Positions 2,089 to 31,322 of a stretch of 64,000 nt of DNA are shown here, one piece after another. The stretch's first letter is position 1; each line of letters opens with the position of its first letter. Made by a program: the position numbers and the translations under genes. The notes below the pieces were generated by a model. The model was given only the letters and a program-made list of their open reading frames with translations. It was not told the origin of the DNA and did no database searches. The DNA comes from Allolobophora icterica (lineage: Eukaryota > Annelida > Clitellata > Crassiclitellata > Lumbricidae), in the NCBI GenBank assembly GCA_963556255.1, contig OY744607.1, forward strand, positions 42,968,052 through 43,032,051, given 5' to 3'.

Positions 2089-2994
2089 TCACCTTGTGCT
2101 GTCAGCTCGTGGAGCTCTAGCGATCGTCCTGGTGAACACACTCCACCATCTCCTATTCGATGACAAGTCTCTCAATTCCGCCAAATTCATGCCAGTTACA
2201 TCTTGTATCTCATCCATCCATCTCCTCCTTGGGCGACCCAGTCTTCTCCTCCCCTCACCGCACGCCAGCATCATTTCCTTCTCCAGCCCATCATATCGCA
2301 TAACATGTCCAAAGAACCTTAGCTTCATTCTTGTCGCAGTTTGTTTTAACGACTCTTCATTCTCAACTCCAATCTCCTCTCGTATTGATTCATTCGTTCT
2401 TTTCTCAGTCCAAGATATTCTCAGCATCTTCCTCCATATCCACATTTCACAAGCGTTAACCTTATTTTCCATGTTCTTTGTCATTGTCCACGTCTCGCAA
2501 CCGTACAGTACCGTAGGAAAGATTAGTGCTCTCACGAGCCTTTTTTTGGTTTCTATGCTCACATGTTTGTCTTTCCATATCTTTTCCAGTCCGGTCATTG
2601 CAGCTTTCCCTATAGCAATCCTTCGTTTTATTTCTGGATCACACTTTCCCTCCTTTCCAACCAGTGATCCTAGGAATGTGAAGCTTTCTACCACCTCTAT
2701 TTCCTCTCCGTCTATCTCAAAACTATCCCAATCTGCTGTTGTCATGACCTTTGTCTTCTTTATGTTGAAGTATAAACCAGCTTTTTCACTTTCTCTCCTG
2801 ACCCTTCTTATCAGTTCTGCCAAATCCTCTTTTCTTTTTGCCATTAATGTTGTGTCATCCGCGTATCTAAGGTTATTCAGTGTCTTTCCAGCAATTTTTA
2901 CTCCCTCAATTGCCCCCTCCAGTTCTGCCTTTCTCATTATTCTTTCAGCATATAGATTAAACAGGAATGGAGACAAGATGCATCCCTGCCTCAC
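2089..2994 (-). pseudogene. LINE reverse transcriptase, C-terminal part
   Basis: A 301-residue open frame. It begins at RQGCILSPFLFNLY, carries the catalytic box LRYADDTTLMA about 45 residues in, then FTFLGSLV, the connection motif VLYGCETWTM, and the C-terminal signature GRRRLGRPRRRWMDEI. These are typical of non-LTR retrotransposon RTs, in which the two YADD aspartates bind metal for target-primed cDNA synthesis. RT motifs upstream of RQGC are absent, so no functional enzyme could be made. It follows the endonuclease fragment on the same strand. A plus-strand ORF over the same bases (2060-3046) is its antisense shadow. Confidence 0.9.
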
Positions 2995-3209
2995 TCCTTT
3001 CTATGCTTCCCATTCGGTGACGTCCATGTGTACAGTCTTCTCTTAGGCTGTTCGAACCAAGTGTTCATAATTCCTAAGCCATTCCCTTTGCAAAACTCAA
3101 CAAGTCTTTCTCCTGCTTCATTCTGTTCACCCAGGCCATGACTACCTAATGTGTCTCCATCGCCTCCGGTGCATTGACCCACCTTCGCATTGAAGTCACC
3201 TATGATCAC
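2991..3209 (-). pseudogene. LINE AP-endonuclease fragment
   Basis: A 72-residue frame beginning IIGDFNAKVG and containing GLGEQNEAGERLVEF and RLYTWTSPNGKHR. This is the GDFN block and following region of the exonuclease-endonuclease-phosphatase domain of LINEs, which nicks target DNA. The last catalytic segment (the SDH-type motif) is missing. The frame stops where the RT fragment begins, marking an internal deletion. Confidence 0.85.

Positions 3210-6937: not shown

Positions 6938-7060
<123 letters not shown>

Positions 7061-10444: not shown

Positions 10445-10449
<5 letters not shown>

Positions 10450-10494
<45 letters not shown>
10450..10494. repeat. (TA)n flank of DNA transposon
   Basis: An AT/TA run ending exactly at the left terminus of the transposon at 10495. 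With 12911-12980 it appears to be one (TA)n target split by the insertion. Confidence 0.9.
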
Positions 10495-10497
<3 letters not shown>

Positions 10498-12907
10498 GGT
10501 GTTTTTATGATGCACATGATTTTTTTAACTCAAAGATCTTTTAACGGCCAGTTCGAATTATCATGCCAATTAGCGTATAAACGCCATATCCGAAATTATA
10601 TCGCGATAGCTGAACATTTAGGACTGGCGCAAGGCGACCGAAATTAGGAACCCGGTGACCTGTCTCGGTTTGGCCAAAATTTTAGACGTTACGATGTCTG
10701 TTCTTCGTGTTTTCGATCTTCAACATAATTATAGTAATTAATTAAGCTATTGTGGTTTTCTAGAGGATACACAGACACCTTGTGCTACATCAATAGCATG
10801 GTATTTAACGCGAGTGGCTGTCTCCCTTGGTAAGAGTATGTGTTTGATCCCCGAATGAGTTTGTGCCAATCAGATAATGTCGTGGTTTCCGATCGGAGCA
10901 ATCTGTCTACAACAATAATTCCCTCGCCCATGACAATATCGTGCAAGCATGGCGGTAGCGACGGAGGTTTCTCTGTTGGCAACATCATCTGAGGAAGAGG
11001 CGTCATCAAATAGCTCAGAAAGAGAACCAGAACCTTCAACGTCAGCTGGACCACCAAAGCGGCAAAAGGGAACAATCTCTGTAGTTACCCGTGATGTTGC
11101 AGCAGCTCTAGATCGTACCAAAACCAGCAGCAGGAATGCCTCTCACATTTTCTCTGCTCTCGCTGCATCCAATCTATATGCAGCACCAGCTGGTGAGCTG
11201 ATCATCAGTCCTTCTGCTATCCATCGAGCAAGGAAGGATAACCGTGCAGCCCTAGCAGCTGAGATTCGTGAATCTTTCGATCCGAAGGTTCCCCTTACTA
11301 TCCACTGGGACGGCAAGATCATGCTAGATTTTACAGAAACTGGACGAGTGTGCGTTGATCGTCTTCCAATAATGGTATCTGGTAAGGATGTGACCAAACT
11401 ATTGGCCATCCCCAAACTCCAATCCGGGACTGCTGCCTTCATGGCAGATGCGTGTTTGACCGATATCAGAAGTTGGGGATTGGAAGACAGAATCGTGGCC
11501 ATGCGTTTCGACACCACGGCGAGTAACACGGGTTGCAAGGGCGGCGTATGCATCAAGCTGGAAACGGAATTAGGAAAACACCTCGTGAACCTTACCTGTC
11601 GACATCATGTTTCTGAAATTGTTCTGGAAAAGGTATTTTCACTGCATGATTCTGTAAGGTCTCCAAAATTGGAACTCTTCAGTCATTTCCGTGACTTCTG
11701 GCCGCAAATCGATCAGACCAAGTATCGCACAGCAATAGAGGATAAAGACGCAGCACAAAGAGTCAAAGAAATTCGAGAGAATGTCATCACCTTCGCACTG
11801 CAGCAACTGAATGCTGAATACCACAGAGACGACTACGAAGAGCTACTAGAACTAACAGTAATTTTCCTAGGAGGAATTCAACTGAAAAGAATAAAGTTCA
11901 GGTACCCAGGGGCATTTCACCGCGCGCGTTGGATGGCACGTGCGGTTTATGCAATCAAGATGTGGCTTTTCAGAGAGCAGTTTCCCATTCAACAACACCA
12001 GAGGGCATCTCGACAATCTTACTCTCAAAAGATGTGAAATCATCTACTTCGAGTTTCACTTTTTGTGACCACAACCTACGTGGAGTACTGGTTCACCTGT
12101 ACATCACCCAATGAAGCCCCAAGGAACGATCTTCAATTCTTGAAGGCAATCCATACTTACCCAGACAAGGAAGTCTCACAGGTAGCCCTAACAGCATTTT
12201 CCCGACACATTTGGTATTTGTCGGAGACCTTGGTTGGCCTCAGCCTTTTTGACGATTCAGTTACCTTCGACGAAAAACAGCGCATAGTCTATAACATGCG
12301 CAACAATCAGGGATCCGACGAACCTCCAAAGAGGCTTCCTCCCATACATGATCCATCTACAAAAGCACTATCCGATTTTTTTACCACTTCTACCATCAAA
12401 CTTTTCCAGCTCCTCAAATTCGATTACGCTTTTCTTGATCGAGATCCACAACAATGGGAGTCAGAGCATTCGTTCAATGAGGCGAAAGACATTATATCCG
12501 CCCTAAGAGTGACGAACGATTTAGCGGAGAGAGGAGTGGCTCTAATGCAGTCCTTCAATGAAGCCCTGGTTCGAAATGAGGAAGAGAAACAATTTGTTCT
12601 TCAAATGGTTGAATACCATCGAAATAGATTCCCAAAAGCACTAAAGGGACTAGGTAATGACAAATAACTGAAGGTTCTTGGTTTGCTTTTGCCTTATTTT
12701 TTATGTTTAAGTGTTGAAATTGTTTGGATCTTCGAGAATTACAATGTATGACATTGTTTTCTAAGTGGTAATTTTTCCCGGGCTTTGCGCCAGTTCTAAA
12801 TCTCTTTTGATTTTCATCTAATTTGGCAAATGTTAATGTTTCTCAAGGTGGAACACAAAAACAAACTGGCCGATATTAATTTTGAAACTTCAAATTATAG
12901 ACACACC

Positions 12908-12910
<3 letters not shown>
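10495..12910 (+). mobile_element. DNA transposon with RNase H-like transposase, inserted in (TA)n
   Basis: The termini are TAGGGTGTTTTTATGAT (left) and the reverse complement TAGGGTGTGTCTATAAT (right), about 14 of 17 matching. Pure (TA)n lies on both sides, so the target duplication is a multiple of TA whose length cannot be read. The element is 2,416 bp and carries one 572-codon frame with a single internal stop. Architecture (short TIRs, one intronless frame) is that of a cut-and-paste element. The transposase suggests an hAT-like RNase H fold, but the terminal sequence is not one I can assign to a named family. Confidence 0.8.
10949..12667 (+). pseudogene. hAT-like transposase, one internal stop
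   Basis: Codons 1-362 end at TGA (12035-12037), and the same frame stays open from there to the stop at 12665-12667 (572 codons in all). A single nonsense change, rather than a frameshift, therefore interrupts it. Residues 10-40 are acidic and Ser-rich, followed by a basic PPKRQK. Candidate catalytic residues are D121 in IHWDGK and D188 in RFDTTASNTG, followed by a C217-R-H-H220 cluster in LTCRHHVSEIVLEKVF, and a late glutamate near residue 527 in NDLAERGVALMQSF. The D...D...C/H...E order is like the RNase H-fold DDE core of hAT transposases, which cut and rejoin transposon ends. Similar proteins are, from memory, scattered in invertebrate genomes as uncharacterised proteins. It could be a recently inactivated autonomous copy, or a functional gene if the stop is a sequencing error. 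Confidence 0.75.

Positions 12911-12980
<70 letters not shown>
12911..12980. repeat. (TA)n right flank of DNA transposon
   Basis: About 35 AT units starting at the right terminus of the transposon. Confidence 0.9.
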
Positions 12981-12982
<2 letters not shown>

Positions 12983-13914: not shown

Positions 13915-14114
13915 NNNNNNNNNNNNNNNNNNNNNNNNNNNNNNNNNNNNNNNNNNNNNNNNNNNNNNNNNNNNNNNNNNNNNNNNNNNNNNNNNNNNNN
14001 NNNNNNNNNNNNNNNNNNNNNNNNNNNNNNNNNNNNNNNNNNNNNNNNNNNNNNNNNNNNNNNNNNNNNNNNNNNNNNNNNNNNNNNNNNNNNNNNNNNN
14101 NNNNNNNNNNNNNN
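13915..14114. other. Assembly gap (200 N)
   Basis: Exactly 200 N, probably a placeholder of unknown true length. The sequence right of it is a (CT)n-rich satellite, which probably caused the gap. ORFs running through the N are meaningless. Confidence 1.
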
Positions 14115-25754: not shown

Positions 25755-26822
25755 CTTCTTTGTCTTTATGTTCTCTGCCCACCGGCAGGTTCGTATGACC
25801 AATGACGCCATCGTTCTCTGTCTTGTGCTCTTCTCTTCAGTCCACTGTATCCTTCTTCTTTTGTCATCATCCAGTCTAGCAGCATTGCCCTCGGTCTTCC
25901 TCGCGTCTTTCTCCCCTCCATCCTTCCCTCCATGATGTCTCTTAGCAGTGTCTCACTCCTTAGGATGTGCCCGATCCATTTCCTTTGTCGTCCGCGTATA
26001 GTACTTATGAGTGATCTTTGTTCTTCTACCATTTGCAGGATTTCCTCGTTCGTCCTCCGTTCCACCCAGCTAACTCTCTCCATTCTGCGCCACACCCACA
26101 TCTCGAAGGCCTCCAATCTTTTTATGTCGTCCTTCCTCATTCTCCATGTCTCGGAGCCGTACAGAACAATACTCCACACCAGTGTCTTCACCATTCTCTT
26201 CTTTAGTTTCTTGCTTAAGCTTCCTCTCATCAGCTCTCCTCTTTTATAAAATGTATCTTTTCCCATGGATATTCTTCTTTTTATTTCCTCTTGGCATCTT
26301 GCATCGTCTGTGATCACACTTCCTAGATAGCAAAACTTCTCCACCTGTTCTATTTCTTCTCCGTTTAGTGTGATCTTTATTGTTTGTGGTGTTATACCGC
26401 TTCTCTTGCTTATCTTCATTACCTTTGTCTTCTTTACGTTTATTTTCATTTCATATTCCAGCGATACCGTGTTTAGACGATCCATCATCCTTTGTAAGCC
26501 CTCCTGGCTAGTTGCCAGCATCGCCTGGTCATCTGCAAATCTCAATGCCTTCACCCTTTTTCCTCCTACCTTTATTCCCTCCTCCATATCCTCTAGCGTT
26601 TCTCTTATGATCTCTTCTATATAGATGTTGAATAGGATTGGTGACAGTGGGCATCCTTGTCTTACCCCTCTTCCTATTTTTCCTGGTTCTGAGTACTCTC
26701 CACCAACTCTTATTTTCACTCTTTGTCCCATGTATAGATTACCTACCAATCTTCTTTCTCTCCAATCACCCCTTTTCTTCTCAGTATTCCCATTAGCTTT
26801 CTCCAGTCTACTCTGTCGAAAG
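25755..26822 (-). mobile_element. 5'-truncated LINE with 8-bp target duplication
   Basis: A 1,068-bp minus-strand insertion flanked by CTTCTCTT (25747-25754 and 26823-26830). Its 5' end starts within the RT at FDRVDW and its 3' end lies just past the RT stop, with no long tail. It interrupts the ORF fragment at 25345-27115. Confidence 0.9.
25766..26749 (-). pseudogene. LINE reverse transcriptase, C-terminal two thirds
   Basis: A 327-residue open frame with [18 protein letters not shown] (RT motif 4 region), catalytic [10 protein letters not shown], a primer-grip-like [18 protein letters not shown], and the C-terminal signature [13 protein letters not shown]. The preceding piece, in another frame up to 26822, contains FDRVDW, so there is one frameshift near 26755. 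The active site is FADD where the LINE at 2089 has YADD. No endonuclease is present because of 5' truncation. Confidence 0.9.
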
Positions 26823-27375
26823 CTTCTCTTAGCCTACCAGAAATTAGGCTGCAACATGTCATTGAAAATTCACTTTCTGCACTCTCATTTGGACTTTTTC
26901 CCTGATAACTGTGGTGCAGTTAGCGATGAACATGGTGAACGTTTCCATCAGGACATATCGACGATGGAAAACAGGTATCAGGGAAAATGGAGTCCTGCGA
27001 TGTTAGCAGACTACTGCTGGACTGTGGTGAGAGATGCCCCAGATGTAGAGTACAAGCGACAGGCAAAGAAAAAAGAACGGTCTAATGCAGAGGAATTATG
27101 TTTCACCCAAATAATATTATATACTTTATGAATACAAAAAACTATTCTACAGGTACTTAGAAGTGTCTTTATAAAATTTCTATCAATGTTCTGTTTCAAT
27201 AATGTCAATTTAGGTTTCGAACTTTGCGAAATATAAGAAAAACCATCTTTGCAAATATTTTCAATAGTAGAGCTAACTAATTTTTTTAAAACACATTTCT
27301 GTAGTCACAGCATTGATACACATAGAAATAAAGCAAGAAAATCAAAGTTACAAAATTTCTTTTAAAAATTGTTGA

Positions 27376-29350
27376 CCAGTGTAATTGGAAGGCGGAGTAT
27401 CAGATGAGTCAGGGCAGGAGTATTTGAAAAGGTGATACTTCAGTTTTGAGTGGAAAGCCCGGGGGTGATAGATAGAGGAATAGGAGGAGGAGGATGAAGG
27501 ACGGGTTGCAATGATGATGGATGAACTAAGAAACTGCGAAATTCAGGGGGGAGATCATTCCAGAAGCGTGGTGCTGTGATGGAAATGGCTCGGTTGGAGA
27601 ACTTGAGGTGAGTAGTGACTGGGGGTCGAGAAAGACTGAGATAGGACGATGATTGGGTGGAGCGGGTTGTCTGCAGGGGCTTCTATCCCTATTCGGGGTG
27701 GGCGCAAGTTGAGCCCAGTGAAAAACAGGGGGGAAGTATTTCTTTTCAATTTTTATCACACTCCCTACAAGTTACAGTCTTACCGAGTCTTTGCTCGCAG
27801 TTCTGTGCAGGGCCTACTACGTAGGGAGGGGGGAAAGGAAGCAGACTGTTTCCAATTTGTGCCAGAGGGAAAGTTCCACCTCCAGTGAAATGGATGTTTC
27901 TGTTCCACTGACAGGACTGACTCAGGCCAGCAAAATGCTTTGTCCTGCAACATCCAAGGACTGAACATTTTAGATTACCTCCCACAAATTACACCTATGC
28001 TTAGTTTACAGTGTCTAAGCAGTGTTATAGTGTATCATTATTACTTGTTTTTCTTTAGCTATTGACCATTATGTTCCGCTATTTTTCTGTTGATGTAGGA
28101 TGCCAAGAAAGCTTAAAAATTGAAAAAAGCGTTCATAATCCTGTTGATTAAGGAAAACTAGTTGGTCAATGCTACAATTATTGTCGTGTAGTGCAGTGAA
28201 AATGGGATTATCAATCTTGATAATATATTCCAGCAAAATAATTGTCGGCTGGGTAACACTGCAATAGGCGGGGAAGGAGCCTGTTGCCAGTGCATTACAC
28301 CATTCATAATGCAGTCTTTAAATCCCCATATATTTGCTAAGCAGTGTCCTATATTGCCCAGTATTTTAACATGCGTCCCATATTTTGGAAATTTTGTCCC
28401 ATATATATTGCAGTCTGTCCCATAACGAAATTAATTCAACAGTTCAGTTGAACTAAAATGTATAGTTTCCCAAAACCAGTTTTCTTTCTCCAAAAATGCT
28501 CTAAAACTCACCTACTGCAATGTAGAAATCCAAAAAATTTGGGGGAGGACCCCGGACCCCTCCGCTTCAAGGGGAGGGAAGGGGAAGGCAGGAATGGTAC
28601 AGGAGTGGTAAAGGGAGAGGGGATAAGGGGTGAGGGATGGGGTGGGGAGGAAGGGAAGGCGAGGTATGGAAGGGCTTTACAGTAAGTCGGGATTGCTTCC
28701 AGCTTATAGGGGGTTCTGTGAAAGGGGGAAGGAGAGGGATTGAGCCCGGTTGTTAAGGGGGGATAGAAGCCACTGGTTGTCTGAAGGGTGAAGAGATCAC
28801 GAAGGTACTTGGGCTGGGAATATTGTAGGGAGTTGTAGGTTAGTGATAGGACTTTGTAGTGGATTCGCTCTGGGATTTTTAGCCAATGGAGTGATTTGAG
28901 GATGGGAGTGATATGATGATGTTTGGGCGTTATAGTGACAGCTCTGGCTAGTGAGTTTTGGATAAGCTGTAGACGCTTGATTTGAGTGGATTCAAGGTTG
29001 AGGAAAAGAGAATTGCAGTAATCAAGCTTCGAATGAACAATGGAGGTAGCAATGGTGGAGGCAGTTTTAAGGTCGAGCATGGGTCGTATGCGTCGGTCAC
29101 GAATGTGCATGAAACAGGAGCGCGAGAGGATGGAGATGTGGTTAGAGAAGGAGAGGTGTGGATCAAAAATAACACCAAGATTGCGAACAGGGGAGCCAGA
29201 GGTGAAGGTGAGAGACGATGAGTTAGTCGAAAGGTTTATGAAAGGATCAGGGATTTTCTTTATTTGATCAGGAAAGCCTAGGATGATGAATTCAGTTTTG
29301 GAAGGGTTAAGGCAGAGGAGATTGGATGACATCCACTGTGAAATAAGTAA
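27376..29350 (-). mobile_element. CR1-like LINE RT fragment, split by a hAT-type element
   Basis: On minus, 29350 to 28784 encodes the RT thumb/C-terminal region: SSNLLCLNPSKTEF, VRNLGVIFDPHLSFSNHI, HSKLDYCNSLFLNL, RLQLIQNSLARAV, SLHWLKIPERIHYKVLSL, LRDLFTLQTT. Translation resumes at 27665 with RSTQ, RPPVTTHLKFSNRAISI, APRFWNDLPPEFRSF. The two parts join in frame when 27674-28775 and one 8-bp duplication are removed. The 5' part with the catalytic box is missing and no LINE tail is seen at the left border. Confidence 0.85.
27674..28775. mobile_element. Non-autonomous hAT-type element
   Basis: Ends CAGGGGCTTCTATCCC and GGGATAGAAGCCACTG form a 16-bp inverted repeat with one mismatch, starting CAG and ending CTG. 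The 8-bp duplication GTTGTCTG lies at 27666-27673 and 28776-28783. CAG...CTG ends and 8-bp duplications are hAT hallmarks. The element is 1,102 bp, has no transposase-like ORF, and lies within the LINE RT frame. Confidence 0.9.
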
Positions 29351-29441
29351 AGTAGCCTGTAATCCAGTTGGGGGAAACCTATGGGAATGCCGAAGCGACG
29401 TGAAACTGAGAAAATGTACCCAATGGTTGGAGGTCCCTTGG

Positions 29442-29484
29442 TGTGTGTGTGTGTGTGCGTGTGTGTGCGTGTGTGCGTGCGTGC

Positions 29485-29541
<57 letters not shown>
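29442..29541. repeat. (GT)n microsatellite
   Basis: GT units with GC interruptions in the first half and pure GT in the second half. ORFs are artefacts. Confidence 0.95.
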
Positions 29542-29542
<1 letters not shown>

Positions 29543-29805
29543 TCGAGCCTTCGCTGAGATTACTACATGTAGAGAGAGGTTACTATAGCGGACTATACTT
29601 GACTGTTATGTGTTATAGGACTTACCATGTAGATGTAATTTCTACTATATATTTAAGATTTGCTTTATATGGGTTAGCTTTTAGCCACCAAAACTTGCAC
29701 TATAGCCTACATAGTCGTACACCAAACCAGAAAGGATGGTGGTTTGAGTTGGCTCCATTGGACGATATCTATTAAAGTAAGCCTATTAACTCGACTTCCC
29801 TTAAC

Positions 29806-30837: not shown

Positions 30838-31322
30838 GTGAGCGCGTTTCGCTATTCTGTGGAATGTTTGATTTGTTTACACAACGGCTTAGGGCCCATC
30901 AAAATTCTGAAGTATTGTAGAATAGGTGGCTTATTCTACGGCTGCGGAGTATAAAAACAGCAGAATAAAGCTACTGACATATATTTTATTGTTTTATCAT
31001 CAGGCATTTATTAAACGCCGCTCTAGGTCTGCTATAAATAGGGCTGAACAACTGTGAGTCCCCACACTATAGTCATCTCGTTGGTGTCGAACTGCGTTAC
31101 AAGGCGAGCGGTCGAACACTCGTCTGCCCTGTCTCACAATATCTTAGGTTGATTGATATGTTATTTTAGGGTGAAGATTGGGATTTTTACTTTGCAATAC
31201 TGTCCAATTGCTTTGGTAGATGGGACTTTGGCTTTAAAGGCTATCCACAGTATGTTTTGGTACACCAACTAGCATTTACTGACGTATTACTCGCTGTTTT
31301 AGGCAGTATCTTTTTGTTTTAG

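Follow-up and report, generated by a model that had tools for sequence, protein, structure and literature searches.

Organization of the locus and of the element ends

The 64,000-nucleotide stretch of the Allolobophora icterica genome analysed here (the window; contig OY744607.1, positions 42,968,052 to 43,032,051) harbors a 2,416-bp DNA transposon at 10495-12910, the termini of which (TAGGGTGT at the 5′ end and ACACCCTA at the 3′ end) directly adjoin pure alternating TA runs on both sides, as noticed in a preliminary description of the locus made from the sequence alone (Table 1). An invertebrate host had likewise been proposed correctly, the COX1 of contig C328 matching that of Eisenia nordenskioldi at 95% and that of an Amynthas at 94%, which places the host among the clitellate annelids, close to the earthworms. 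The element is bounded by terminal inverted repeats (TIRs) of 17 bp and carries near both ends, in inverted orientation, the motif CGGCCAGTT, possibly a binding site of the transposase. Of 40 sampled copies, 39 have the sequence CGGCCAG no more than 100 bp away from the 5′ end.

A search of the element's own genome (1.118 Gb in 328 contigs) returned at least 41 matches to it (40 of 1,012 candidates scored), and the 25-base 5′ end occurs at 346 places exactly and at 447 with one mismatch allowed, compared with none for the reversed control pattern, excluding chance as the origin of the element. Within the window, the exact TA-plus-TAGGGTG motif is present at the two element ends only; with up to one mismatch there are 3 matches versus 0.28 expected, and the third site, bearing one mismatch, lies at 31162-31173.

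Transposase and family placement

The 572-codon frame of the element (10949-12667) is interrupted by a single internal stop, a TGA that only the window copy has among 40 aligned copies. The residues D121, D188, C217, H220 and E527, singled out in the preliminary description, do not vary among 52 aligned sequences, the window product included, and their equivalents are found in 80/80 sequences of a second alignment. The earlier assignment to RNase H-like (DDE) transposases of hAT type is consistent with the predicted fold, for which the best match is Hermes (PDB 4d1q, 6dwz), and in which a Hermes-like RNase H core with the D-D-E residues, the CxxH motif and a hAT-type helical insertion between the second Asp and the Glu can be recognized.

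Elements of the hAT superfamily have short ends of type YARNG and 8-bp duplications of type nTnnnnAn, and an N-terminal BED zinc finger is common among them, though not universal. TAGGG fits the former and the duplications of the element the latter. The preliminary description regarded the ends as unlike those of known hAT families; this view is not supported, as 5′-TAGGGTG and CACCCTA-3′ ends together with duplications of 8 or 9 bp constitute the hATm signature published in PMC6004678. These ends are present in the window element and in its long copies, and the duplications are of the same length class. The probable placement in hATm draws on the ends, the 8-bp duplication and the predicted fold.

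A separate hAT-like superfamily that merely shares its TAGGGTG ends with hATm is an unlikely alternative. In its favor, PF05699 (hAT dimerisation) was not seen, neither the window product nor the L132 protein of a related lineage retrieving any family (0 families each), and it is absent among the 25 families listed of 46 for the 52 sequences (E ≤10), sequence profiles being liable to overlook a diverged family; nor does a precomputed Pfam domain appear in either listed set of 120 homologs. Furthermore, in residues 1-235 of 80 relatives the helical N-terminal domain has no Cys column reaching 40%, and therefore no zinc finger of BED type. Against such a separate origin, the ends, the 8-bp duplications, the Hermes-like fold and the TATATATA duplication of hATm-3 from Hydra, as given in a figure legend (PMC8721813), all agree with hATm and hAT.

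Target sites

Identical 8-bp flanks were found in 44 of 48 both-ended copies, selected because they resemble the window copy or its protein, 33 of them being ATATATAT and 11 others. The non-(AT)4 duplications all share a YRYRYR core (11/11) and are exactly 8 bp long in 10/11 cases; across the 44 duplications, T occupies position 2 in 42 and A position 7 in 44. In 32/44 copies the target belongs to an alternating AT run that is 12 nt or longer, whereas such runs make up 0.2% of the remaining window sequence and 0.8% of the distal flanks. Among 40 further ends, picked by hand from 100 listed places and all on C1-C3, ATATATAT precedes 18 and a YRYRYR core 34 (window background 0.14% and 2.5%, respectively). 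Genome-wide, ATATATAT precedes 199 of the 346 exact 5′ ends and is absent before the remaining 147, indicating that TA repeats are strongly preferred but not required. The TA-repeat targeting proposed in the preliminary description thus holds as a preference and fails as a strict rule, many copies lying outside such repeats. Several insertions occupy (CATA)n or (GTAT)n tracts, alternating pyrimidine-purine DNA being the description that suits most sites.

The wide variation of TA-run length between copies would also be expected if insertion had no TA preference and the tracts had grown later by slippage from the 8-bp duplication. We consider this quite improbable, since L009 and L012, 0.04% apart in sequence and without any common flank as long as 150 bp, are already surrounded by runs of 82 and 112 nt, and since the alternating core of the non-(AT)4 duplications and the insertions into (CATA)n or (GTAT)n tracts speak against it as well.

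An internal deletion and the evolution of the remaining frame

The preliminary description considered the transposase nearly intact, a claim that is not supported: the window frame lacks ~190 N-terminal residues present in longer relatives, and the element is an internal-deletion derivative. Among the 40 aligned copies, one, L048, has 990 additional bp, which encode the N-terminal domain. Two more long copies are L050 and L052, and L051 carries a different deletion. A single in-frame stop interrupts L050, which covers the entire transposase, and L048 and L052 have the N-terminal part and the core in different frames, so that a whole open frame is found in none of the three long copies of the window lineage that were analysed. 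Allowing up to 2 mismatches, the deletion junction is present at 380 places in the genome and the N-terminal start at 31 (15 of them with 2 mismatches), the reversed controls giving 0.

The window copy is young, as had been supposed, differing by 0.29% from its nearest relative; the mean pairwise divergence among the 40 aligned copies is 2.5%. In 36 deletion copies, measured against the mutation spectrum of the element's non-coding part, 344 changing and 125 silent variants were counted (0.99 of the expected ratio, P 0.96), along with 20 stop variants versus 22.5 expected. The remaining frame thus evolves neutrally and is carried along as a passenger, from which movement in trans naturally follows as an inference. 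A function of the truncated 572-codon product in its own right, as a repressor or a transposase sufficient by itself, which would account for the spread of the deletion type, is very improbable, for although 7/40 aligned copies keep the frame fully open, the whole catalytic core is retained, the deletion junction is far commoner than the N-terminal start, and a 567-residue relative (P0001; 93% identity, on a 2,074-base contig that may be cut) starts near the start of the window frame, the neutral ratio and the near-expected number of stops strongly disfavor it.

Further arrangements were observed among the copies. L033, L035, L038 and L039 are four near-identical copies within ~31 kb (G000:C7:14860093-14891279), probably through local duplication; L049 (G000:C1:86878146-86886852) has ~303 bp of extra sequence within the element; and at G000:C2:55240732-55240801 two element 5′ ends stand head to head, 20 bp apart.

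Related lineages with open transposase frames

Searching the genome with the protein P0079 revealed several lineages with stop-free transposase frames of ~736-791 residues (59 of 14,598 candidates scored). Nine copies from four lineages were retrieved by means of their flanks, the C19 and C9 copies representing one lineage (93% identical over 605 bp). Ends of the TAGGG/CCCTA type with identical 8-bp flanks are present in 7/9, with a YRYRYR core in 7/7, and were not seen in two (C5 and one of C2); the TAGGGTG ends are thereby tied to the protein family. In one lineage, the protein of which is 41% identical to the window product, seven copies (L132-L138) have no stop over 2,178 bp, six of them identical and one differing at 1 base. 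Two of the seven have different duplications and hence represent separate insertions. The near identity of these stop-free copies suggests recent movement.

Table 1. Coordinates of the element, its parts and the stop-free copies of the related lineage (window positions unless a contig is named)
Feature	Position	Strand	Remarks
(TA)n target microsatellite, left part	10449-10494		46 nt; contains left 8-bp target duplication (ATATATAT, 10487-10494)
5′ TIR, TAGGGTGT-type	10495-10511	+	14/17 matches to 3′ arm
Subterminal motif CGGCCAGTT	10545-10553	+	from the sequence; also present inverted near 3′ end
Junction of 990-bp internal deletion removing part coding for N-terminal domain	10932-10933		L048 alone of 40 aligned copies keeps the 990 bp; junction pattern at 380 places
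Transposase frame, first part	10949-12037	+	ends at in-frame TGA 12035-12037
Catalytic Asp D121 codon	11309-11311	+	first strand of RNase H fold; alignments
Catalytic Asp D188 codon	11510-11512	+	alignments
CRHH (CxxH) motif codons, C217 to H220	11597-11608	+	alignments
Transposase frame, second part behind TGA	12038-12667	+	runs to natural stop
Catalytic Glu E527 codon	12527-12529	+	alignments
Inverted copy of motif CGGCCAGTT	12864-12872	-	from the sequence
3′ TIR	12894-12910	-	arm of 17-bp TIR, ends in ACACCCTA
(TA)n target microsatellite, right part	12911-12981		71 nt; contains right 8-bp target duplication (12911-12918)
L132-L138	C1:69893393, C3:36878349, C5:73122059, C6:11119802, C11:33033567, C12:6236375, C20:5992535		G000

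Other features of the window and genome

Microsatellites are abundant in the window (32 tandem-repeat rows with a score of at least 150, some overlapping), including a pure (TA)59 tract without insertion at 6940-7057. Long frames on the minus strand at 2092-3000, 25769-26833 and 28511-29605 resemble, in their motifs, pieces of LINE reverse transcriptase, and a block of 200 N at 13915-14114 is masked or unsequenced. Elsewhere in the genome, a COX1-like match at G000:C257:6513-7808, in a 721-codon frame without TGA and unlike the mitochondrial contig, possibly belongs to a bacterial symbiont contig, and COX1-like stretches in inverted orientation within a chromosome (G000:C8:61145195-61147845) are probably a nuclear mitochondrial insertion.

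Origin and movement of the element

Given the observed ends and 8-bp duplications, the biased choice of targets, the deletion, the neutrally evolving remainder of the frame and the predicted fold, the element very probably derives from a cut-and-paste DNA transposon of hATm (hAT superfamily), is non-autonomous through an internal deletion and is presumably moved in trans. A 3.4-kb parent encodes a transposase of ~755 residues composed of an N-terminal helical domain, probably engaged in end binding, and a Hermes-like RNase H core with the DDE triad. The derivative has lost 990 bp including the N-terminal domain while keeping both ends, and full-length copies presumably provided, in trans, the transposase that spread its junction to 380 places. 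Upon insertion, 8 bp of alternating pyrimidine-purine sequence are duplicated, in many cases within a (TA)n tract, perhaps through recognition of flexible alternating DNA.

Several observations weigh against this interpretation. Besides the missing PF05699, the Hermes rows obtained with Foldseek have modest TM-scores (0.31-0.43 by query length); four of the 48 both-ended copies (L024, L039, L045 and L049) are without identical 8-bp flanks, and the alternating core is absent at 6/40 sampled ends. Moreover, the 380 are places with the junction pattern, whether or not both ends are kept, and the pattern behind the 31 N-terminal starts misses diverged long copies.

More tentatively, and with the odds rather against it, hATm may be a hAT branch with a new helical DNA-binding domain in place of the zinc finger, choosing its targets by the shape of alternating pyrimidine-purine DNA, so that microsatellites like (TA)n, (CATA)n and (GTAT)n would serve as safe landing sites; several autonomous lineages of this annelid may also still be on the move and mobilize many deletion derivatives. 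Elements of hATm are named in repeat tables and little described in the literature searched, and in the open-access literature searched we found no annelid study that deals with hATm and TA microsatellites, although one may exist. In a single genome, long copies bearing the transposase are found along with a dominant deletion derivative, the target preference has been measured and the fold predicted. An animal hAT family is thereby linked to microsatellite targeting; the stop-free, near-identical copies of the related lineage make recent activity testable.

Comparison with known systems

The hATm-6 elements of Rhodnius prolixus and Cotesia vestalis share with the annelid element the TAGGGTG/CACCCTA ends, the 8-bp duplication, a hAT-type transposase and animal hosts, but for them PF05699 is reported and the TIRs measure 417 and 575 bp (PMC6004678), whereas the TIRs here are ~17 bp and the window copy is a deletion derivative. 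hATm-3 of Hydra, as described in PMC8721813, has the 8-bp duplication and the TA-repeat sequence in common with it. With Hermes, a hAT element of Musca, the window transposase is predicted to share the RNase H core, the helical insertion between the second Asp and the Glu and the fold over ~350 residues, while their sequences are 9-12% identical; the BED zinc fingers of Hermes, described in PMC10368747, contrast with the helical N-terminal domain without conserved Cys in the window family.

Microsatellite targeting is reported in PMC4486113 for several plant elements and one lepidopteran element. There MuTAnT of Medicago, a Mutator-like element with 9-bp duplications, prefers (TA)n microsatellites (TAFT and Micron are also named); the preference is shared with the annelid element, but MuTAnT has no hAT relation. 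Maize Ac/Ds, although another hAT family, provides the same type of derivative: internal-deletion forms that retain their ends and depend on a full-length relative for movement, according to PMC3260210, as the annelid derivative would presumably do in trans.
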